Assembly (NCBI GenBank): GCA_026014685.1
Contig: JAOZHW010000007.1
Coordinates: 434,001 to 498,000, forward strand
DNA length: 64,000 nucleotides
Direction: 5' to 3'
Source of the DNA: Candidatus Bathyarchaeota archaeon
GTDB lineage: Archaea; Thermoproteota; Bathyarchaeia; Bathyarchaeales; Bathycorpusculaceae
Below, in pieces: positions 40,410-64,000 of the stretch (the stretch's first letter is position 1; each line of letters opens with the position of its first letter). Made by a program: the position numbers and the translations under genes. Below the pieces are notes generated by a model, which saw only the letters and a program-made list of their open reading frames with translations, had not been told where the DNA came from and did not search any database.

Positions 40410-40534
40410 GCCGGGGTGGCGGAGTGGTTATCGCGCCAGCCTCGAGATCATATCAAAGGGCGCCAGATTACTTACTGGCGGGATAGCTGGTGGGCTTCGT
40501 GCTCGCAGGGGTTCGAATCCCTTCCCCGGCGCCA
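40410..40534 (+). tRNA. tRNA-Ser (CGA anticodon) with intron, CCA encoded
   Basis: The acceptor stem is GCCGGGG/CCCCGGC, with a D arm closed by GCG/CGC. The anticodon stem CCAGC (40436-40440) pairs with GCTGG (40486-40490). The loop CTCGAGA gives anticodon CGA (40443-40445), provided a 38-base intron at 40447-40484 is removed after position 37, the commonest archaeal site. The intron itself folds into CGCCAG/CTGGCG with an 8-base loop. A long variable arm (GGGC/GCTC) and discriminator G73 fit tRNA-Ser. I could not draw a fully canonical bulge-helix-bulge at the junctions by eye. CCA is encoded. Its 3' end begins an accessory island. Confidence 0.87.
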
Positions 40535-40540
40535 ACAACA
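40508..40540 (+). repeat. Attachment-site-like repeat, tRNA copy
   Basis: The last 27 bases of tRNA-Ser plus 6 bases beyond (starting GGGGTTCGAATCC, ending CCAACAACA) recur at 44472-44503 in the same orientation, with 29 of 33 positions alike, one deletion and three substitutions. tRNA 3' ends are classic attB sites for archaeal integrases. Confidence 0.6.
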
Positions 40541-40684
40541 TACCTTTGGACAAACACCCGGCTAGCCGCTATTTGGGCTTTCGAAAGATTTCGCCCTTCT
40601 CGTAATCGCAAACGTATTGGAAACCTGGATACAAATGGGTTAAGTTTCCATATCCACATCGATTTAGCGTTGCTCTATAGACTA

Positions 40685-41416
40685 TTATTTTTTCAGGGCA
40701 ATTTGCCGCAGGGTTTCTTGCATTTCAGGCTTTTGATATTTTTGTTCATTTTCTAGATAGTCAACCACGGTTTCATATTCTATTTTGTCCATTTTTTCCT
40801 CTAGCCAATGAACACCTTCAGATTTGAGTCGTATCAAGGACCAAAGGTTCATGCCATTCTCTTTGGCGGCCTCGGTTGCCCCTTGTTCCCTATCAATCAG
40901 TACAACGACATCATCACACGTTATTTCTACGCCTTTGTCCTTTGCTGCTTGAAGGATCTGCGCTTTTGCGATAAGCTTAGTGTTAAATTTTGTTGCTAAG
41001 TCATCGATTATAGCAACCTTATCTCCGTTCTGGAAGTCACCCTCGACTAAAGCATGGTGCCCATGGCTGCTGAGCTTAGTTTTCAAATCGGGCAATTTTT
41101 TATAAAAATCTGCGACATCCTCAACACTCTCTATGTGCCTGCCATAGCACGATGGAAGACCTGTTGAAATAGTAATAGCTGAAGCTAGGGGAATTCCAGC
41201 CATGTATAAACCAACAGTTCTTGTAACTGCAGGTGTTTTTGTACTAATAAGTCCTCCGAGGGCTCCGCCTATATCACAGAGTATTTGTTTGCTTGTCTTC
41301 TTACTTCCCATCGGTCTAAGATTAATGTAAATGGGACTCCAAATTTTTGCTCTCAGAATGTATCCTTTAGGGTTGCCTCTATACCAAGTCTCAATCATAC
41401 CTTGGTCATAAAGCAT
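40685..41416 (-). CDS. Orotate-phosphoribosyltransferase-like protein with altered PRPP loop
   Basis: 243 aa with the OPRT outline: YILRAKIWSPIYINLRPM near the start, GLYMAGIPLASAI in the middle, and VLIDREQGATEAAKENGMNL near the end. The PRPP-binding loop reads VAIIDDLATKFNTK: the acidic pair DD is kept but the usual T-G-x-S/T turn is replaced by K-F-N-T. The frame continues a few codons upstream of the ATG with OPRT-like residues (KAIIQ), so the true start may be a rare codon. A normal pyrE lies at 58553, so this copy is unlikely to serve pyrimidine synthesis. It is the last gene of the island run. Confidence 0.75.
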   Translation of the reverse strand: MLYDQGMIETWYRGNPKGYILRAKIWSPIYINLRPMGSKKTSKQILCDIGGALGGLISTKTPAVTRTVGLYMAGIPLASAITISTGLPSCYGRHIESVEDVADFYKKLPDLKTKLSSHGHHALVEGDFQNGDKVAIIDDLATKFNTKLIAKAQILQAAKDKGVEITCDDVVVLIDREQGATEAAKENGMNLWSLIRLKSEGVHWLEEKMDKIEYETVVDYLENEQKYQKPEMQETLRQIALKK

Positions 41417-41460
41417 TTGGATTATTGCTTTGCCTGTTTCCTCTCTGTTAAAGGTCGTAA

Positions 41461-42384
41461 CTAGTTAACTCTCCTCTGCATGACGCTGAATTCACCATAA
41501 GTAGGAATCTTGAATTCTTTTATCTTTCGGAAACCCACATTAGCATAAAATGCTTCTCTTTCCTTAAATGCATCAAGGCAAATCGATGAAACCCCATTGA
41601 ATTTACAATAATCTATGAAAAATAGCAAGAGTTGCTTTCCAATACCTTTGCCCTGAACTTCCTTATCTACTGCAAGAGTTTCTACCTTGACTGTTTTAGG
41701 GTTCAAGTGAATGAAATGAAGTACTGCAAGAAGTTTGTCTCCATCCTCAACAACAAATACTTTGCCTTTCTTGCTAATTTTCAAGAAGTAAAGGTATTCT
41801 CCAATTTCAGATTTATCTATTCGTGGGTCCCCGCACTTTGGCCAGCGTTTTTTGCAGTCATTATAGTTTAATTCACGCAAAAAATCGCCAGGCGGCATTA
41901 AAACCGGTGGGTAAGCCCACTCTATATCAGGTGGATATCCCTCAAGTAATAGGAAGTAATTGTCCTCTTCATGAATGATTGTTGAAAAGAAATGGGGAAA
42001 ACAAATCGCTGTGTTTCTAGCTGCTATGCTCATTGTTTTCACATCGGTTGCTCCTGCAGCCAGGGCAGCATTAGCGACAATCCGGAGAGTTTTTCCCGTA
42101 TCAACCCGTACGTAAGTAATTAGGACTTTTTTGTCCTTAATCTTATCCCCAGGAAAATTTGTTACTTCTAAAGCGTCACCTTTTCTTACGACGTCGCATG
42201 TATAGGTCTCAATCGCTTCATCTTCTAATATCTCAGGTAATCGACCGATAATCTCAACGCCAGATATTCCGACTCCAATGAGAACTGGAAGGTTCTTACC
42301 ATAATATTGGCGTAGCTCAAAAGCAAGCGACTTTAATAGGCGACTGAAGATATCCTCTGTTAAATATACATCCAACGTCTGCAC
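41461..42384 (-). CDS. Phosphoribosyltransferase-GNAT acetyltransferase fusion
   Basis: 307 aa. The N-terminal domain (about 1-150) is a type I PRTase fold: LPVLIGVGISGVEIIGRLPE and the PRPP loop VLITYVRVDTGKTLRIV. Here the D-T-G-x-T turn is kept but the preceding acidic pair is replaced by Thr-Tyr. The C-terminal domain (about 185-300) is a GNAT acetyltransferase with VETLAVDKEVQGKGIGKQLL (acetyl-CoA loop Q-x2-G-x-G) and LDAFKEREAFYANVGFRKI. I know of no standard enzyme with this pairing. Start is at 42384, 14 bases after the zinc-ribbon gene stop on the same strand. Confidence 0.75.
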   Translation of the reverse strand: MQTLDVYLTEDIFSRLLKSLAFELRQYYGKNLPVLIGVGISGVEIIGRLPEILEDEAIETYTCDVVRKGDALEVTNFPGDKIKDKKVLITYVRVDTGKTLRIVANAALAAGATDVKTMSIAARNTAICFPHFFSTIIHEEDNYFLLLEGYPPDIEWAYPPVLMPPGDFLRELNYNDCKKRWPKCGDPRIDKSEIGEYLYFLKISKKGKVFVVEDGDKLLAVLHFIHLNPKTVKVETLAVDKEVQGKGIGKQLLLFFIDYCKFNGVSSICLDAFKEREAFYANVGFRKIKEFKIPTYGEFSVMQRRVN

Positions 42385-42398
42385 TGCTACTGTATATT

Positions 42399-42641
42399 TT
42401 ATGCTAACTTCTCTGGGGGCATCGCTCTAACTGGATGTAGCTCTATTTCATTGCCAAGTGCATCGCTAAAGCAGCGACGACAAAGAATTCCATTGTTTGT
42501 CTCGTATTTGCCAGTAATAGCTTCATGTATATGAACTCCGCAATGTGCACATGTTATAGCTGGTTTTTCGCAAAGTTGAAGTCGTAATGAACTAATTCTT
42601 TTTCTTGTAGCTTCATTCACCCCAGATTCACCTCTAATCAA
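42399..42641 (-). CDS. Zinc-ribbon protein, 80 aa
   Basis: Two C-x2-C pairs, AITCAHCGVHI and GILCRRCFSDAL, are spaced 20 residues apart, with one further Cys upstream (LQLCEKP). Basic residues precede the first pair. This is the shape of a small metal-binding adaptor or DksA-like ribbon. Family not recognised. Short spacing to the PRTase-GNAT gene suggests one transcript. Confidence 0.7.
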   Translation of the reverse strand: MIRGESGVNEATRKRISSLRLQLCEKPAITCAHCGVHIHEAITGKYETNNGILCRRCFSDALGNEIELHPVRAMPPEKLA

Positions 42642-42672
42642 CTACAACATTCCCTCCTTTTAACATAAAAAC

Positions 42673-42858
42673 CTAACGTTTTTGCCCACTCCTTTTATCA
42701 AGCCAAATAACGAAATTGGCTTTGTTTTCTTTTACAAACTCCAATACTAGCGACACTGTAGTTTTAGCGCTCGGCACTTTTCCGTCTAAGAGAGGCATTT
42801 CTTTCCTAAGCTGTTCTACAAGACTCTTGTCGTCTTCATCGATATTAATTGTGGGCAA
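42673..42858 (-). CDS. Small charged protein of the island, 61 aa
   Basis: I place the start at a TTG at 42858. GAGGAAAGTG stands 8 bases upstream and a TATA-like CTTTATATTC (42891-42900) stands a further 30 bases upstream. The longer open frame to 43047 would add a low-complexity hydrophobic stretch encoded by an extreme AT tract and is unlikely. The protein (TINIDEDDKSLVEQLRKEMP ... VSLVLEFVKENKANFVIWL) looks helical and soluble, of the size of an antitoxin, adaptor or regulator. Family not recognised. Confidence 0.6.
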   Translation of the reverse strand: MPTINIDEDDKSLVEQLRKEMPLLDGKVPSAKTTVSLVLEFVKENKANFVIWLDKRSGQKR

Positions 42859-42900
42859 TGTTAATACACTTTCCTCTATCGCTGAATTAAGAATATAAAG

Positions 42901-42990
42901 TTTTGTGTTATTAATATATATATGTAATAATATATTAAAAACATAATATAATAAAATTATATTATAACAAAATAACAAAATCTTTCTTGA
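42901..42990. other. Extreme AT-rich tract
   Basis: About 90 bases made almost only of A and T with repeated TAATATAT/ATAATATAT words and very few G or C, between the MBL gene and the small-protein gene. It probably contains the promoter region of the small protein. The composition is unlike the surrounding 40-50% GC sequence. It could be a melting or bending region of a former mobile element. Confidence 0.5.
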
Positions 42991-43075
42991 ATCCGATTTT
43001 TGTGGAAAACACGTAGGGGTTGTTGGACAATCTACGTATTCTCGCAATCTTCAGTCGCTTTCAAATTGATTTATT

Positions 43076-44329
43076 TCAGGGATATAATAAACTTCTAGTC
43101 AATATTTCGATAGCCTCATTAGTGCATCTAAAAGTATTCCCATTGTTAGTTATCTCCGAGCAAACGCCCTTATCAGGATGCCCATACTTATTGTTAGTAC
43201 CCGCTGAAATAACCCAGCAACATTGGTTGGTAGTAGTCTTCAAAACATCTTGATTCCAATTCTTTAATGAACCATGATGTGGGACAAGCGCCATATCGAG
43301 CCGTGAAAGCTTACTTCCAAAATGAACTTTCATCTGGGGCCAAGCAAGATTCAGATTAATATCGCCCGTGAGCAGATAGTCAACCGCTGACGGATGAAGA
43401 ATTGTCAGTTTATCTGCGGATTGGATTGTCATAAAAGAGAGATATCGGCATGGAAAAGAGCCAGCAAAACTTGCTTGGAGTGGTTTTCCTCGAAGCGGAC
43501 CGTGATATAAAACAAGCGAAGTATCGTTAAAATCGCCACCAAGCTTGCTATAGCAGTGTCGTAAAGCACCCAGTTTCTTCCTATCATGAATGATTTCTTC
43601 TAAGCTGTCCTTGCCGTTAACGCTTCGTACACAGCTTTCAAAGCGAGTTTTAAAGGCATCTTCCACCTTGCGGTTGAAGAATCTAAAAATCCAAAAGCCA
43701 GCCAACAGCAGACTTGAATCATGCCTTTTTGCAGATAGCCTTCTATCGGCAATCATTCGGGAGACTACCGAGCTCTCGGTAGTTTGGACTTTATGAATCA
43801 AGTCTTCATCATCCGGTAGTTTGTCTACGTTTATCTTGTCATCCGTTTCGTTATTAAAACGGTAATCCTGAAACACATAGTCGTCCTCAGGAGGTCTAGG
43901 CTCGTTTTGCCCAAAGAGAATTATCCTTTTCACACCTTTTCTTGCCAAGAAATAAATGGGATCTGCCCAAAAATCACGCAACCATTCGGGTGGATTGCTG
44001 GATTCTAAGGCGACCATAAGTCGATCTGTTGGTTCTAAATAGGGAAGCATAACGGTGTCAATGGTTGTTTGACATCCAATTGAATCATATAATAAAGAAT
44101 AAAGTCCATTTATATGATCTGAGTGTAAATGTGAAATGACCAGTAAACCAATATGATCACCTTGCAAGTCATTCCTTTTGTAATTTTCAACTACCGATTC
44201 AATCTGGTTTTTATTGTCTGATCCGCAGTCGTAAATAAAGTTAAAGTTGTTTATTTTGCCGCTATAAAAAAGACCTTGTCCAACATTGTGAAAGGTGAAC
44301 CTAGCGCTTACTGGAATGTTTGATCGCAT
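43076..44329 (-). CDS. ComEC-like metallo-beta-lactamase-fold hydrolase, stand-alone
   Basis: 417 aa, soluble. The MBL metal motif is intact, VISHLHSDHINGL (H-x-H-x-D-H). Further ligand candidates are VDYLLTGDIN (Asp) and LVPHHGSLKNW (His), with the ComEC/Rec2-type ending WVISAGTNNKYGHPD. The opening FHNVGQGLFYSG with NFIYDCGSD is also of this class. ComEC itself is a DNA-uptake channel, but this protein has no membrane segments, so it is probably a soluble nuclease or phosphodiesterase. The ATG at 44329 has a TATA box 22-31 bases upstream. It is the first gene of the island run. Confidence 0.85.
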   Translation of the reverse strand: MRSNIPVSARFTFHNVGQGLFYSGKINNFNFIYDCGSDNKNQIESVVENYKRNDLQGDHIGLLVISHLHSDHINGLYSLLYDSIGCQTTIDTVMLPYLEPTDRLMVALESSNPPEWLRDFWADPIYFLARKGVKRIILFGQNEPRPPEDDYVFQDYRFNNETDDKINVDKLPDDEDLIHKVQTTESSVVSRMIADRRLSAKRHDSSLLLAGFWIFRFFNRKVEDAFKTRFESCVRSVNGKDSLEEIIHDRKKLGALRHCYSKLGGDFNDTSLVLYHGPLRGKPLQASFAGSFPCRYLSFMTIQSADKLTILHPSAVDYLLTGDINLNLAWPQMKVHFGSKLSRLDMALVPHHGSLKNWNQDVLKTTTNQCCWVISAGTNNKYGHPDKGVCSEITNNGNTFRCTNEAIEILTRSLLYP

Positions 44330-44350
44330 AACAGTCCGTATGGTGCATTA

Positions 44351-44360
44351 TTATATAAAA
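44351..44360 (-). promoter_or_regulatory. TATA box of the MBL gene
   Basis: TTTTATATAA on the minus strand, 22-31 bases before the ATG at 44329, so transcription would start at or next to the start codon (leaderless). A second AT element lies just upstream (44361-44370). Confidence 0.55.
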
Positions 44361-44471
44361 GATATAAGTTAATCTGCGACATAGCAGTGGCTGATAACCC
44401 CCATTGGTTCGTAAAAAGGAGGAGCTTTTGCGGAGAAAACGATTTTTATTGGCGATATCGCCTTTTTCTCT

Positions 44472-44503
44472 GGGGTTCGAATCCTTCCCAGGCCCCAACA
44501 TCA
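44472..44503 (+). repeat. Attachment-site-like repeat, distal copy of tRNA-Ser 3' end
   Basis: GGGGTTCGAATCC-TTCCC, then GGC and CCAACA, matches the end of tRNA-Ser (40508-40540) in the same orientation. No other tRNA parts (D arm, anticodon arm) precede it, so it is a 3'-end fragment and not a decayed whole tRNA. It closes the segment of island genes. Confidence 0.6.
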
Positions 44504-44506
44504 ATT

Positions 44507-46567
44507 TTAAGTTGAAGTTTTCGTATTGTCGCTTTTCGATGATCTCTTTTTAGCAGCAACCGCGGCTATACCTAACACCACAGGCAACATAACAGCCACT
44601 GTTATGCTTGGTGGGAATTCTGGAATGATATTAGAGCCAGCAGAGTTTGATGACGAAGAGGATGTGCCTGATGTTTGGGGGGTTGGGGTTGGCGAAGGAG
44701 ACGGAGACGGCGAGTTCGATTCTTGAGTGTTAACGGTGTACACTTCGATTATGTTCACTGCATCTATCGAGCGGGTGTCCTGAATTGCAAATATGTACCG
44801 TGTCGCGTTTGAGTTGACCCAACCAACCTTTGTGCTTCTACCTGCATCCGGCAAAATGTCGTAAATTTTTGCGCCACTAGCATCGAGGACTGCGCCGTTA
44901 GCGAGGAAAATTAATTTGCCGTCACCTGAAAAGCGGAGATCTGTGAAATCTTCATAGCAACGCCACAACACGTTACCGTTGAGGTCAAACATAGTCAGTA
45001 AGCCGCCGCCAACCAAGATTTTTGTGCCATCGGGTGAAAAGCGGCAGGTAGAAAAACCGTTGTGCAAATCTGTAGTAAACCTTACGGTGCCGTCTGATGT
45101 GTTGATTAAGGAGAAGTATCCTGCTTTTGTTGCTACCGCTAAATAGGCTTCGTTAGGGGACAGGTCAAAACCGTTAACATACGGCCAGCAGCCTATCCAT
45201 TGCCGCCACACCAGCGAGCCGTCAACGACCCTGAATTTGTAGAGGCAGCCGCCGCTTGAGGGAATGTAAACGTACTGGTTATCTTTAGTGAATAGGACTT
45301 CTCTTACTTCTGAACCGATCCATACAGACCATTTGATAGAGCCATCTTCTCGGTTAAGCAGGTAAGCGTATGGGCCGTGGACGGGTACAAGGAGGTAGTT
45401 TCCGTCGTGTGAGAATTTTACGGCGCGAGTATAATGTTCGCCTTCGGTGGAGTTGGGGAAGTTTTGTGTTGTAATTTTCTTTTCCCATATGGTTGTGCCG
45501 TCTGTTCCGTTCAGTAAACGTATGTAATTAACGAATCCTGGGGGTCCTGTTTGGAAGCCTTCAAGTTTTGTTCCAAAGGCCACGTATTTGCCGTCGTCAG
45601 TGATGTCTGCCGTCCATGATTCCCAGCCCATGTCATGAGTCCAAATAATGTTGCCTGTAGCAGTATTAAGCAGGTAAAGTTTTGATTGGGTCTTGATGGA
45701 TTCATCTTCCCAGTTTTCCATCCCATTGACTAGTAAAAGTTTACTTTCGTCAGCTGTAGCGGTGCATCTCCAAAAACCTATGGTCCCCGAGTATTGTTTA
45801 GTTAAGGTTGAAGTTACTGTTTGGGAGACTTGGTTGCGGGTAAGAGTTACAACGTATGATTGTTGTATGTGGTTGCCGTCGATTTCAAGGGTTTTTGCGT
45901 AATATCCTTCTTTTTGGGCAGTTAAGAAGTAAACGGGGCTTTCACAGAGTCTGATTGCGAATTGACCATTTGCCCCTGACATAATAGGTTGTTTTGTGCC
46001 GAATGAGCCTACTTCTATTGAAACGTTAGCTAAAGGGTTACCGTTCTCATCTACGGTTGTGCCTTGAATTAAGGTGCCGCCTTGTGAGGGAGAAGCGTTA
46101 ACTACTTTTATCTGGATGGTTTGGTTTATCTGGAAAGTGTTGTTGGGGCTATCCCAGTTGTGGTTATTGTCAAAAAACTGGAAACAAAAGGTGCGGTTAA
46201 TTGTCTGCTCAACATTGGGGTCGTAACCTAACTGTCCACTTTGGAAAACTATTTTGAACCACATGGATTCTCCAGGAGCCAAGAGCACGTCGCCTTGAGG
46301 CGCCTGAACTGCAGGGTTATGGGGGGTTTCGACGCAGTATTGATCGAAGTGTGTAAGCAGAACATTGTTTCCGATGTTTGTGGCTTTAAATTTAAAAATA
46401 AACCAGCTTTCTGCTGGGTCAATAAAGCTGTATTGGGTTTGGGTGAAATCAAGAGATAAGTCGTCTTTTAGACAAGAAGAGGAAGAGGCATTGGCAAATG
46501 CGAGGTTTGTAAGCGTTAAAATAGCGCATATTTGGAGAGCTATCAGTAGAGTGGCGAGTTTCTTCAT
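44507..46567 (-). CDS. Secreted beta-propeller protein with carboxypeptidase-regulatory-like domain and PEF-type C-terminus
   Basis: 686 aa. A signal peptide (MKKLATLLIALQICAILTL) is followed by an Ig-like domain (about 40-150) and a carboxypeptidase-regulatory-like domain (GTTVDENGNPLANVSIEVG, about 165-240). Next is a beta-propeller with repeats such as LYLLNTATGNIIWTHDMGW, YLLNREDGSIKWSVWIG and YKFRVVDGSLVWRQW (about 255-600), then a Ser/Pro/Thr linker. It ends IIPEFPPSITVAVMLPVVLG plus a basic tail, like archaeal PEF-type sorting signals. It is probably surface-anchored and glycosylated. It may belong with the two large paralogues nearby but is not one of them. Confidence 0.85.
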   Translation of the reverse strand: MKKLATLLIALQICAILTLTNLAFANASSSSCLKDDLSLDFTQTQYSFIDPAESWFIFKFKATNIGNNVLLTHFDQYCVETPHNPAVQAPQGDVLLAPGESMWFKIVFQSGQLGYDPNVEQTINRTFCFQFFDNNHNWDSPNNTFQINQTIQIKVVNASPSQGGTLIQGTTVDENGNPLANVSIEVGSFGTKQPIMSGANGQFAIRLCESPVYFLTAQKEGYYAKTLEIDGNHIQQSYVVTLTRNQVSQTVTSTLTKQYSGTIGFWRCTATADESKLLLVNGMENWEDESIKTQSKLYLLNTATGNIIWTHDMGWESWTADITDDGKYVAFGTKLEGFQTGPPGFVNYIRLLNGTDGTTIWEKKITTQNFPNSTEGEHYTRAVKFSHDGNYLLVPVHGPYAYLLNREDGSIKWSVWIGSEVREVLFTKDNQYVYIPSSGGCLYKFRVVDGSLVWRQWIGCWPYVNGFDLSPNEAYLAVATKAGYFSLINTSDGTVRFTTDLHNGFSTCRFSPDGTKILVGGGLLTMFDLNGNVLWRCYEDFTDLRFSGDGKLIFLANGAVLDASGAKIYDILPDAGRSTKVGWVNSNATRYIFAIQDTRSIDAVNIIEVYTVNTQESNSPSPSPSPTPTPQTSGTSSSSSNSAGSNIIPEFPPSITVAVMLPVVLGIAAVAAKKRSSKSDNTKTST

Positions 46568-59170: not shown

Positions 59171-59451
59171 AGGGTTTCCCCGTTGTGAATGGGGAGCATG
59201 GGATTTAACCCTTTAGCAGTCGAACAGGGAGGGAACTTTACCTTATTGTAAAAGTGAGGAGAGGTTTAATAAAATGTAGCGCAATTGAGACGGGGGTTGC
59301 TGAGGTTTCTGAATTGTTTTCTTAAGGAGAAAGAAAAATCCAAATCACGATTCGCAACATCATAAATTCAAGGCCAGGAAACCACTCAGCCCCATTATAT
59401 TATTTAACTCAAACTAAAAAAAGGAAAAGGGAAATTTTTCATGAATTGACC
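59171..59451. other. Intergenic stretch without a visible gene
   Basis: 281 bases between pyrE start and the end of a large surface-protein gene. It probably holds the pyrE promoter at the left. I see no open frame with coding character, no tRNA and no repeat, apart from A-rich tracts near 59400-59430 next to the surface-protein stop. Confidence 0.5.
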
Positions 59452-62109
59452 TTATGGTCGTTTTTTTAGCGCTAAAACTATGACTACACCGATGACAATT
59501 ATTACAATGAGGATAGCGATTGACATTGGCATGAAGTATAGATCAGCCATCGATGGTGGTTGGGTTGGTTGCGGTGTTGGAGTTGCAGGTGCGGGATCGA
59601 CTGCGAAAGAGGTCACTGCATTTGACGGCCAGTAAGATTCAGATCCGCTGAATGAAGCGTAGACTACGTATTGACCGGGGATATCTGGTTTCCAGTTAAA
59701 AGTGAAGAAACCGTCTGAAGTTGTTGTAGTGCCGATAATTCTGTAGTTACCGTTTCCGTCTACTACACTTAAGGTAACTGGCACACCCGTAACGTTAGTT
59801 GGCTTTGGTTTTTGTATATAAACGTATTGCATCCATTTGCTTTGACTTTCGTCAGAAACACACGCTACCCCATTAGGGAATCGTGCTGCTTGTTCGTTTT
59901 GTGTTGTGCCAGCAGATATATCGGTTACTGTTCCACGAATCACTACACTTGATCCTTCAGTGATGGCAGAAAGCGGTGCGTCTACAGTTGTCCTACTTGG
60001 ACCTTTGCCGATAGTATAGATTTGCATGTCGTAAACGTTTAGGTAATTAGCGTAACCGTCAGCGATGTATATGGGTTCAATTAGGTTTGCACCGTATGGT
60101 GTAAAAGTGTTCCAACCCGGAAGAGTCCAGATTTCGGCGCCAGTAGTTGCGTTAATACAGCGTATTAATGCGCCTTTGTATGGTGGTGAGTTTGGTGAGT
60201 GTTCAGATGTGTGTGCATAGATCTTCCCGTCTGCGATGCTGCTAATAAAAAGCGGATAGTGCCCGTAGACAGTATTTAAGCCACTATTCGTGTTGTTATA
60301 AGTCCAGAGTTCTGCGCCTGTCTTCATGTCGAATGCTACGATTTCTCCTCCATAGCCACCTACGTATAGATTGCCATACGCAGTGAATCCTCTTGGCAAG
60401 TTCGGACCACCGCTAGCACCTTGGTAATATTGGAAGCTATCCCAAGTGTGAGTTGTTGGACCCCATATTTTAGCGCCGGTGTCGAGGTTGTAGCCAGTCC
60501 ATTGGAAGGTTTCTTTTTCTGCAATACAAAAGACACGTGAAGTTGGATCAACAGGTGTTGGCCATGATGCAACACCGATTGTTATTGTTGTATTAGTTGT
60601 TGGAGCATCGTAGTTTTTCATCCATAACAACTTGCCTGCTGCGGCTCTAGATAAGTTTAGGTTTATTGCCCAAATTGTATAAGGTGCTGAGCTGTATGAT
60701 GCTGTACCTGATCCTGAACCCGGTGCACCACTTGAGGGGAGGGTACCGTTTCTACCTAGTAAGATATCACCCGGAAATACACGGATAACTGTCGCATCGG
60801 AAGTTAGCCATGGTTCGGTTACATTTAATGAATAGGCTGCTGATCCCTTTGAAGTAGAATTGAATACTGTGCCAACTGGTCTATAGTTGAACATAGTGCC
60901 CGTTGTTGCAGTTACTGCAGTTGAATTCCAGACTGTTAGCGTTTTAGAAGTAGCGCTTAAAGTGTAGATTAATATTTCACCGTTTGGTCCATAAGCTTGT
61001 GTGCCTGATGGTACATTTGTGATGTTGAATAGCCAATTGCCATCGAGTGGATCGGATGCCATCCAAGTAGTTCCTTGAACTGTCCATAAGTAACCGTTCG
61101 GAATTACGCCGTGCTGGTTAGGGTCTTCATAGTTTAAGAGTTGCCCGAAGTTTGGCATTGTTGCATTTTTCCAGAAAAGTTCTTCACCAGTTCTTAAGTC
61201 AACGCAAATATAACCGTTGTAGATTGCTGTTGTTCCGAATCCAGTTGCGCCGTTATTACTTTTTGGTAGTGGATAGTATATGCGTCCGTTCATTATTATT
61301 ACAGGGTTATATTTAGTTTCATAAGATAGCCCAGAGTAAAAAGTCGCGCCATCTACGCCTGTGTTTGTTCCGCCTACAACACCGCCATCCTGAATCGGTT
61401 TAGTCCACATTATGTGTGCACTATTTGGGCCCGTGCCATCCGGTTGATAGTTTGCTACAATACTAGGATACCCAAGCCAGTTAGATGCGATTGCGTACCA
61501 GTTTGAGTTTTGTCCTTCAATTGGTCGTGTCCAATATTCAGTAGGTAGTGGATAATCATTAATTTCACTAGATACGGGGTCTTGCTGTACAGTCAAAATT
61601 GTTGATGCAGAACTTGGAGCGTAGGAATCGTTAACAAATTCATTAGGAGTTCCCTGACCAGTGTACGGATTACGTGAAATAATTGCGTGACTATAGTCAT
61701 TAATATTTTGTCCAGGGAAATTGAAGGTTATTGTATAGTTGCCAACTTGTGTTGGAGTGAAGGTAGCATATTGAGATGAAGTCGTATCCCAGACAGTTTC
61801 CCTGGTTATTGTTTGGTTGGTTCCATCAGGTGCAGTTATAGTGACTTTATAATTATGGAATCGGTAGTCATTTGTCATCAAAGCGTTGTCATAGATTTTG
61901 TCAAGCCAGAATACAACAGTCACTTCTTGGCCTATGCCCACAGGGTTCGGTGAAACATGTACGTAAGCAAAAGTCGGTATAACCCAGGAGGGTGTATGTG
62001 CAGAAGTAGCAGGTAAAGCGATTGAAACAGCTAAAAGTGACAGCAACAGCATTGTTAGCATTGGAATTTTACTTTTTGACTTATTTGCGATATTTTTGAT
62101 TTTATGCAT
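59452..62109 (-). CDS. Large surface beta-propeller protein, paralogue 2
   Basis: 885 aa; the ATG at 62109 is preceded by AAAAGGAGAATAAA. A signal peptide (SKIPMLTMLLLSLLAVSIAL) is followed by an Ig-like domain (TPTQVGNYTITFNFPGQN), PLPTEYWTRPIEGQ, and PQQ-type propeller repeats (DLRTGEELFWKN; DMKTGAELWTYNN; NATTGAEIWTLPG). A second Ig-like domain (GFFTFNWKPDIPGQYVVYA) and a terminal membrane helix ending ALKKRP complete it. It shares most blocks with the protein at 46723, including the tail motif MADLYFMP before the helix. It is divergent from a double-unit Lrp regulator. Probably a major envelope protein; several Asn-X-Thr/Ser sites suit N-glycosylation. Confidence 0.88.
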   Translation of the reverse strand: MHKIKNIANKSKSKIPMLTMLLLSLLAVSIALPATSAHTPSWVIPTFAYVHVSPNPVGIGQEVTVVFWLDKIYDNALMTNDYRFHNYKVTITAPDGTNQTITRETVWDTTSSQYATFTPTQVGNYTITFNFPGQNINDYSHAIISRNPYTGQGTPNEFVNDSYAPSSASTILTVQQDPVSSEINDYPLPTEYWTRPIEGQNSNWYAIASNWLGYPSIVANYQPDGTGPNSAHIMWTKPIQDGGVVGGTNTGVDGATFYSGLSYETKYNPVIIMNGRIYYPLPKSNNGATGFGTTAIYNGYICVDLRTGEELFWKNATMPNFGQLLNYEDPNQHGVIPNGYLWTVQGTTWMASDPLDGNWLFNITNVPSGTQAYGPNGEILIYTLSATSKTLTVWNSTAVTATTGTMFNYRPVGTVFNSTSKGSAAYSLNVTEPWLTSDATVIRVFPGDILLGRNGTLPSSGAPGSGSGTASYSSAPYTIWAINLNLSRAAAGKLLWMKNYDAPTTNTTITIGVASWPTPVDPTSRVFCIAEKETFQWTGYNLDTGAKIWGPTTHTWDSFQYYQGASGGPNLPRGFTAYGNLYVGGYGGEIVAFDMKTGAELWTYNNTNSGLNTVYGHYPLFISSIADGKIYAHTSEHSPNSPPYKGALIRCINATTGAEIWTLPGWNTFTPYGANLIEPIYIADGYANYLNVYDMQIYTIGKGPSRTTVDAPLSAITEGSSVVIRGTVTDISAGTTQNEQAARFPNGVACVSDESQSKWMQYVYIQKPKPTNVTGVPVTLSVVDGNGNYRIIGTTTTSDGFFTFNWKPDIPGQYVVYASFSGSESYWPSNAVTSFAVDPAPATPTPQPTQPPSMADLYFMPMSIAILIVIIVIGVVIVLALKKRP

Positions 62110-62161
62110 TTTTTATTCTCCTTTTACAATATTCTGCTTTTTTTTATCTATTTAATATTTG

Positions 62162-62171
62162 CTATTAATAG
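62162..62171. promoter_or_regulatory. Palindrome 1 in the surface-protein/Lrp divergent region
   Basis: CTATTAATAG, a perfect palindrome within GCTATTAATAGG, about 55 bases upstream of the surface-protein start. It matches the second site at 62222-62234 except for one central base. Confidence 0.5.
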
Positions 62172-62221
62172 GCTTAAAAACACGCAAATATCAATTTATT
62201 TATAATAATTTTTTAATTTTT

Positions 62222-62234
62222 GCTATTTAATAGC
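62222..62234. promoter_or_regulatory. Palindrome 2 in the surface-protein/Lrp divergent region
   Basis: GCTATT-T-AATAGC, perfect arms around one base. Centre-to-centre distance to palindrome 1 is about 61 bases (close to six helical turns). Candidate Lrp-type operator pair; both are inside the 203-base divergent region. Confidence 0.55.
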
Positions 62235-62312
62235 CATCAAAAGTACAAAAAAACCAGAAAACTTTCAAAACCATCACGCTTTTAAACCCGTTTGAGTCAC
62301 TCCTCATGAATC

Positions 62313-63269
62313 ATGTCAAACGAAGAAACGATCGATGCTACTGATCTGAAAATAATAGAGCGCTTACAAGAAGACGCTAGAACGAGTCTTAATTTAATGG
62401 CGGAAGAGTGTAAACTATCCTCTAGCGCCATACTCACAAGAATTAAAAAACTTAAACAGAAAAAAGTCATAATCGGTAACAGGCTAATCGTTAGAAGTGA
62501 AGCGTTTGGTTACCCTTTTATGGCAACTGTAGGTGTCATAGCTGAAGCTCAAAAAATTGATCAAATCACACAAAAAATACGGAGCCAGCCAAACGTTATT
62601 GTTTGCACAAAAAGTATTGGCCGATATAATATGCTTTTTTTAATTCTAGCTCAAAACATGGCAGAGCTAGATAGCGCAACGCAAAAAATCAAAAACATAG
62701 ATGGCGTAAAAGCACTCTCGGTTAACCTTATTTTGGAGCGCTTTTCTAGTAGAATTGAAAACAAGCCTCTTAAAATAAAATCAAAAGAAGAATTGGATAA
62801 TCTTGATTTAGCGATTATTGGAGAGCTTATGAATGATTCAAGTCTTTCTTTTAACCGGATTTCCAAAAAAGTTCAAGCAAGTCATGAGACGATAAGAAAG
62901 AAATTTGAAAAACTTAAAGAAAAAGGAGTCATAATAGGCTGCATCACGATTATAGATTACTCAAAATTGGGATATCAAGGCACTGCTTTTATTTTTGTTA
63001 AACTAACTCAAGAAGGTCAAAAAAAATTCGTTATAGAAGAACTAATCAAAATGCGACAATTAGACTTAATCAATTCAGTAATAGGTACCTATGACCTAAT
63101 TGCCTTCGCGTCATTCAAAAATTTAAGAGAGTTTACTAAACTAATCGATGAAATGCAACGAATCCCGGGAATAGGGCAAATTGAGATGTCTTTGGCTAAC
63201 TTTACATACTTTGCATATAAGCCTATACCTAAAACACAAATTAAGTGTGATACAGTAGAGTTATCATAA
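62313..63269 (+). CDS. Double-unit Lrp/AsnC regulator
   Basis: 318 aa. Two complete Lrp units are fused in one chain. Helix-turn-helix 1 (LKIIERLQEDARTSLNLMAE ... SSSAILTRIKKLKQK) is followed by RAM 1 (FMATVGVIAEAQ ... GRYNMLFLILA). Helix-turn-helix 2 (LDLAIIGELMNDSSLSFNRIS ... SHETIRKKFEKLKEKG) is followed by RAM 2 (AFIFVKLTQEGQK ... GTYDLIAFASF). Classical Lrp has one unit of about 150 residues. A fused chain may form a pseudo-dimer on an asymmetric or spaced operator, such as the two palindromes upstream. The ATG at 62313 is clear. Confidence 0.9.
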   Translation: MSNEETIDATDLKIIERLQEDARTSLNLMAEECKLSSSAILTRIKKLKQKKVIIGNRLIVRSEAFGYPFMATVGVIAEAQKIDQITQKIRSQPNVIVCTKSIGRYNMLFLILAQNMAELDSATQKIKNIDGVKALSVNLILERFSSRIENKPLKIKSKEELDNLDLAIIGELMNDSSLSFNRISKKVQASHETIRKKFEKLKEKGVIIGCITIIDYSKLGYQGTAFIFVKLTQEGQKKFVIEELIKMRQLDLINSVIGTYDLIAFASFKNLREFTKLIDEMQRIPGIGQIEMSLANFTYFAYKPIPKTQIKCDTVELS

Positions 63270-63476
63270 GTTCAGGTCTTCGTTTTAAGCCCAAGCAGCT
63301 TTTTACGTATTGGAAAGAACTTTTTTATGAGAATTCCTTACGAAGTTAACTCTACTTATTGCAAACCAGAGGGGTCATATCAAACATCGCCATAATTTAC
63401 TAAGTTGCTCCAAATGGCCTTAAAGCAAGTCAATGTTAAAATTAGGAAACACTTGCAAAGACTTTGCTTGACTTGA

Positions 63477-64000
63477 TTAGACGACGAGGTCTGACATGTC
63501 GACGCTGCGCTCATAAATCTGCCGCAGAAAAGACACCGCAGCCAAAATCTGAGGCATCAAATCCACCGACGAATCCTTAGCTGCTTCCTCAATCTTGGAG
63601 CAGGCGTCCTCGATTTTGACTCTTTGGTTTCGAACGTTCTCAGCTAGCTCCATATCCTTGCTCTGGAAAGCTTTGAAGGCTTGATCGTTAGCCTCACAGC
63701 ATGCGCCCTGCAGTTCCAAGAGGAGTTTTCTTAGGTCAGCGGAAAGTTTGTTTCCATCCAACTCGAGTGTGCTGGACGCCATCTGGACGCAGGCGTCGCC
63801 GATGCCCTCTATGAAACCCGCAGCTAAACGGTAGTCCAAGCATTCAATCGGGGAAATTGCGAGCTTTTCGCTCAACCGAGGATTCTGCAGAATTGTGCGG
63901 AGGATTCTGACCAGTAAAAAGTAAAATTTGTTGTTTTCCACATCACGTTCAATGACGTTTTTAGCTAAGTCCATATCCAAGTTAACAAAAGACGTTGCAG
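63477..64000 (-). CDS. PhoU-like protein (N-terminus cut by window edge)
   Basis: The frame is open from the right edge; an ATG at 63980 exists, but the residues before it (TSFVNLD) read on naturally, so the N-terminal part (in archaea often an AbrB-type DNA-binding domain plus the first PhoU half) lies outside. The visible 167+ aa are all-helical with PhoU-type acidic helices: KNVIERDVENNKFYFLLVRI, ECLDYRLAAGFIEGIGDAC and DMELAENVRNQRVKIEDAC. The E/D-rich helix patterns bind metal clusters in PhoU. It probably controls phosphate uptake. Confidence 0.75.
   Translation of the reverse strand, partial: ATSFVNLDMDLAKNVIERDVENNKFYFLLVRILRTILQNPRLSEKLAISPIECLDYRLAAGFIEGIGDACVQMASSTLELDGNKLSADLRKLLLELQGACCEANDQAFKAFQSKDMELAENVRNQRVKIEDACSKIEEAAKDSSVDLMPQILAAVSFLRQIYERSVDMSDLVV

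Follow-up and report, generated by a model that had tools for sequence, protein, structure and literature searches.

A decayed integrase island with five cargo genes at the 3' end of a tRNA-Ser gene in a Candidatus Bathyarchaeota archaeon

Among the closest described counterparts of the locus reported here are the Islander tRNA-gene islands (PMC4383910), with which it has in common a regenerated tRNA gene, a displaced 3' fragment of that gene at the opposite end and an origin through a tyrosine integrase. Elements with an archaeal integrase of the classical type have their attachment site outside the integrase gene, which integration leaves unsplit; the pNOB8 subfamily carries the signature R...YxxR...Y (PMC8371274). 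Further points of comparison are the cryptic integrated elements of Thaumarchaeota (PMC6563490) and ShosTA and related toxin-antitoxin defence pairs, made up of DprA and a phosphoribosyltransferase (PRTase) (PMC9122126). The island described below is a decayed member of the tRNA-targeted genomic islands and a clear case of a familiar kind. It differs from the Islander examples in that its integrase has been cut to 18 codons and its distal fragment has diverged; it would therefore escape automatic mapping programs that depend on an integrase gene.

The window analysed is a stretch of 64,000 nucleotides from a Candidatus Bathyarchaeota archaeon (assembly GCA_026014685.1, contig JAOZHW010000007.1), whose 2.3-Mb genome (G000) comprises 23 contigs. 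It contains a tRNA-Ser(CGA) gene with a 38-nt intron at 40410-40534 on the plus strand, called by ARAGORN with introns allowed; the intron-free run called no tRNA at this position. This gene is the integration target, and its 3' end would have been regenerated by the element. A diverged copy of the 3' end, representing the distal attachment site, lies in the same orientation at 44472-44503. Its sequence, GGGGTTCGAAT-CCTTCCCAGGCCCCAACATCA, matches the tRNA 3' end plus 6 nt in 29 of 33 columns, with one gap and three substitutions. The alignment scores 44, compared with 29 for the best of 500 dinucleotide-preserving shuffles and 25 for the next-best site in the window, and the 13-mer GGGGTTCGAATCC has exact matches in the window only in the tRNA-Ser gene and in this copy. 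No further part of a tRNA is present at 44472. The tRNA call, the alignment and the shuffles thus bear out the initial annotation, which had described a tRNA-Ser ending at 40534 and a 29/33 same-orientation copy of its 3' end standing alone. A tRNA-targeted genomic island has just this arrangement, with the intact tRNA gene at one boundary and a copy of its 3' end, in the same orientation, at the other.

Between these two ends lie about 3.9 kb and five genes, all of them on the minus strand and thus opposite to tRNA-Ser, as had been proposed. The first, g1 (40685-41416), encodes an orotate phosphoribosyltransferase-like protein (PDB 2wns, E 8.9e-9); when aligned with PyrE proteins, it shows an altered PRPP loop, IIDDLATKFNT, in place of the DDL(I)TT(G) of its relatives. 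The product of g2 (41461-42384) combines a PRTase domain, with the loop VLITYVRVDTGKT, and a GNAT acetyltransferase domain, as judged from Pfam and PDB matches. The short gene g3 (42399-42641) encodes a small zinc-finger-like protein with two CxxC pairs (CAHC and CRRC) and weak Pfam matches below the cut-off. It is followed by g4 (42673-43047), a small protein with no Pfam match, whose true start is probably later than called, the first third being an AT-rich translated spacer. The largest gene, g5 (43076-44329), encodes a ComEC-type metallo-beta-lactamase (MBL)-fold protein, recognised through Pfam, MBL components in PADLOC and ComEC structures in PDB, and it has its metal-binding motifs (HLHSDH, TGD and HHGS). 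AlphaFold models of g1 and g5 built from single sequences have a mean pLDDT of 34, too low to be of use.

The base composition of the island also agrees with what had been noticed from the sequence. Its GC content is 0.395, compared with 0.464 in the remaining window, and is lower than in all 241 sampled stretches of the same length. The end of the window, at 59251-64000, is likewise AT-rich, with GC falling to 0.32 at 62001-63000.

The initial annotation had stated that no integrase was to be seen, and in this respect it was mistaken. The last 18 codons and the stop codon of a tyrosine recombinase gene (GFQYVCDYEKGEIFRKPK*) survive on the minus strand at 40569-40625, where they were identified by their DNA match to an intact gene in a related genome, G006; these final codons are all that the island retains of an integrase gene. 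The remnant is separated from the tRNA by a left arm (40535-40568), which is conserved at the same tRNA in G006 and in another relative, G013. Together, arm and integrase 3' end (window positions 40536-40627) are 96% identical over 93 bp to the DNA that directly follows tRNA-Ser in G006, and 17 of the 18 remnant residues are identical to those of the G006 integrase. At the opposite end, the 43 bp preceding the displaced copy (right arm, 44429-44471) can be aligned to the distal arms of the elements in G006 and G013. The two ends of the island thus come from a single element family. These conserved arms inside both ends had been overlooked along with the remnant. A DNA search of 61 genomes with the remnant and its arm returned G000, G006 and G013 only, always at tRNA-Ser; a more distant copy of the integrase-tail stretch occurs in G167.

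The relatives present a graded series of integrase decay. In G006, an intact gene for a 424-aa tyrosine recombinase (Pfam Phage_integrase, E 6e-18) is convergent with tRNA-Ser, and its stop codon lies 36 bp from the tRNA. In G167, the gene is at an intermediate stage, with N- and C-terminal pieces, a lost middle and in-frame stops, while 17 recognisable codons are left in G013 and 18 in G000. The G006 element extends over about 15 kb across two contigs that share an identical overlap of 147 bp, and its cargo includes a type I restriction-modification system and a ShosTA-like DprA/PRTase pair (L100 11033-12376 and 12947-19075; G006:C15). Beyond this element, at about L100 9026-9064, there is another tRNA-Ser 3' fragment, which has an arm and is more decayed. 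The G013 element carries a gene of 101 aa that is 84% identical to a gene of the G006 element, a YgjP-like piece and a NucS-like nuclease gene. The cargo of this element family differs between genomes, and the window island has no gene in common with the G006 or G013 elements besides the integrase tail.

At 22 of 30 loci with relatives of this integrase in other genomes, the same polarity is seen: the gene points with its 3' end to that of a tRNA gene within about 310 bp, the tRNA being one for Ser, Cys, Leu, Pro or Phe. This corresponds to the classical plan of archaeal integrases (PMC8371274) and not to the SSV-type (suicidal) one. In the window's own genome, too, a related integrase gene is found next to tRNA-Cys; its reading frame is split into two that overlap (L124; G000:C11:126092-127340), and this copy may be decaying as well.

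Set against the described archaeal types, the G006 element follows the classical (type II) plan (PMC8371274): its attachment site is external to the integrase gene, which integration has left whole and which points toward the 3' end of the tRNA. From the position of the remnant, we infer the same type for the window island. An SSV-type (suicidal) element was considered and rejected, as the island contains no N-terminal part of an integrase and the G006 gene is whole. The pNOB8 subfamily was rejected as well, since the G006 integrase has HTLRH (HxLRH) and not YxxR. With the cryptic elements of Thaumarchaeota (PMC6563490), the G006 element shares a tRNA target, a tyrosine integrase, and genes of replication type and for type I restriction-modification, whereas the window island has only the integrase tail and unrelated cargo.

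Further evidence comes from the same site in other genomes. Those compared belong to different species, most of them in many contigs; G032 represents another genus of the same family. In G032, tRNA-Ser (C18:59302-59430) is directly followed by an ortholog (70-76% identity) of the secreted propeller gene that flanks the window island as a chromosomal neighbour (44507-46567, minus strand). The stop codon of this ortholog lies about 90 bp from the end of tRNA-Ser, and none of the five genes is present, which places the absence of the island at the orthologous site at genus distance only. The gene upstream of the G032 site differs from that of the window. In G012, the gene directly after tRNA-Ser is homologous (58%) to the second propeller gene; G018 has a homologue of that same gene, with 83% identity, about 5 kb from its tRNA-Ser. 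It had been predicted that the GT-C gene, tRNA-Ser and the propeller gene would be adjacent where the island is missing; the tRNA-propeller part of this prediction holds in G032, while the GT-C part fails, with the GT-C orthologs located elsewhere in the relatives. G015 has, about 3 kb upstream of tRNA-Ser, a further tRNA-Ser-like sequence that is almost complete (positions 18-120, 88% identity; L097 13227-13252; G015:C2:651226-651323).

The suggested search for the g1-g5 set at other tRNA genes covered 18 further tRNA-Ser loci, and not one of the five was present at any of them. Relatives do not all keep the five genes, nor does the 44472 copy stem from an unrelated tRNA, the two outcomes that the initial annotation had named as speaking against its reading. 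Within 257 genomes of the class, g2 is full-length in G000 alone, g5 has partial matches only (roughly 30-40% identity), and g1 has many distant matches that resemble housekeeping orotate phosphoribosyltransferases. The best relative of g1 elsewhere is a pyrE-like gene of G211, in an ordinary-looking neighbourhood without relatives of g2-g5. In a search of a genome collection, only the GNAT domain of g2 found a match, in Pontibacter. No relatives of g1, g2 or g5 were found in viral contigs, and g2 had no match among plasmids. Plasmid MBL matches are distant (about 23-28% identity), and no annotated PRTase neighbours them at the two loci read.

Taken together, the window island is very probably a decayed tyrosine-recombinase element at the 3' end of tRNA-Ser(CGA), with 18 codons of its integrase left. 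This reading is directly supported by both attachment sites, the arms homologous to the G006 element, the integrase remnant and the island-free arrangement in G032; the last two also support the archaeal integrase-element layout first proposed. In the suggested course of events, a classical-type element, with its attachment site outside the integrase gene, would have inserted into the 3' end of tRNA-Ser(CGA), regenerating the tRNA at its left end and pushing the former 3' end to the right. Of the integrase gene, which points with its 3' end toward the tRNA, all but the last 18 codons would later have been lost, while the distal attachment copy drifted. The outcome would be a 3.9-kb island that carries five cargo genes and is fixed in place, having presumably lost the ability to excise. 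Judging from the arms at both ends, the cargo would have arrived together with the integrase element.

The cargo could also be a later replacement inside the old element, since only the integrase tail is shared with the G006 element. In such a two-step history, which appears rather unlikely, the element was gutted, and g1-g5 came in afterwards by homologous or illegitimate recombination between its two old ends. The lack of any cargo gene in common with the G006 or G013 elements and the change of cargo from genome to genome fit this course, but variable cargo is usual in such elements, and the surroundings of g1-g5 yielded neither a transposase nor a repeat. Such a history would leave the nature of the site unchanged.

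The initial annotation had left open whether the element was decayed or mobilised in trans. Decay is favoured because the truncated integrase gene borders on the tRNA at the very position that it occupies in intact relatives. It is improbable that the island lacked an integrase from the start and was put in place by the integrase of a helper acting in trans, the tail being left from a lost earlier or tandem element. What gives this alternative some substance is that, in two other genomes, this tRNA-Ser is host to tandem units which apparently lack an integrase. Copies of the tRNA-Ser 3' end that are exact over 21-27 nt occur three times in tandem in G005 (L095 9746-9786, 12361-12399 and 15999-16032; G005:C155) and once in G022 (L096 14714-14753; G022:C111). 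Each is preceded by a TTACYRGTAA palindrome and 3 nt, and second palindromes follow about 100 bp after the tRNA and after those copies not cut by a contig end. The genes carried by the units serve metabolism, transport and regulation; inspection by eye revealed no integrase-like ORF among them.

The same junction of palindrome and tRNA-Ser 3' copy was also found in another genus, in G166 (L233 9541-9580; G166:C26) and G167 (L234 5052-5091; G167:C53). The junction pattern has 6 matches in 91 genomes, compared with 1 for a reversed control pattern. In G167, the palindrome unit ends immediately next to the decayed integrase gene that belongs to the same element family as the window island, an arrangement that also speaks for action in trans. 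Against it stands the match of the two arms of the island to a single family of integrase-bearing elements, and the window also lacks the palindrome by which the integrase-less units are marked. The weakest alternative, a chance repeat enclosing ordinary resident genes, could appeal only to the data being from MAGs and the comparisons running across species, and it is refuted by the integrase tail adjoining the tRNA and the conserved arms, together with a 3' copy far above shuffles, the G032 arrangement without the island and genes not found in relatives.

For a decayed integrase element, a defence role of the cargo is plausible by analogy with its sister elements, which carry the type I restriction-modification and ShosTA-like genes of G006 and the NucS-like nuclease of G013. 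More specifically, the five genes might form a defence module: g5, the ComEC-type MBL protein, would be the effector nuclease, with the PRTase-like proteins as its sensors or partners, a proposal judged less likely than not. In PADLOC, g1 and g2 match no model and g5 matches single MBL components only, and the defence reading is weak for this reason; with partner genes absent, the island contains no complete PADLOC defence system. A kinship with ShosTA (PMC9122126) is suggested by the ShosTA-like pair in the G006 element and the PRTase-like proteins in the window, but g1 and g2 match no ShosT model, their local similarity is negligible and the island is without DprA.

Concerning the site itself, tRNA-Ser may be a docking site common to integrase-bearing elements and to a family of integrase-less, palindrome-marked tandem cassettes moved in trans by the helper integrase, with the window island as a stripped helper. 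This broader picture is doubtful at present, and it includes the hypothesis that integrase-less units move in trans. The related archaea compared here display stepwise integrase loss at one tRNA site, from a whole gene through an internally deleted one to an 18-codon stub. Such loss is a route by which foreign genes become fixed in the chromosome, and a seemingly integrase-free island can be recognised by the conserved integrase tail adjoining its tRNA.
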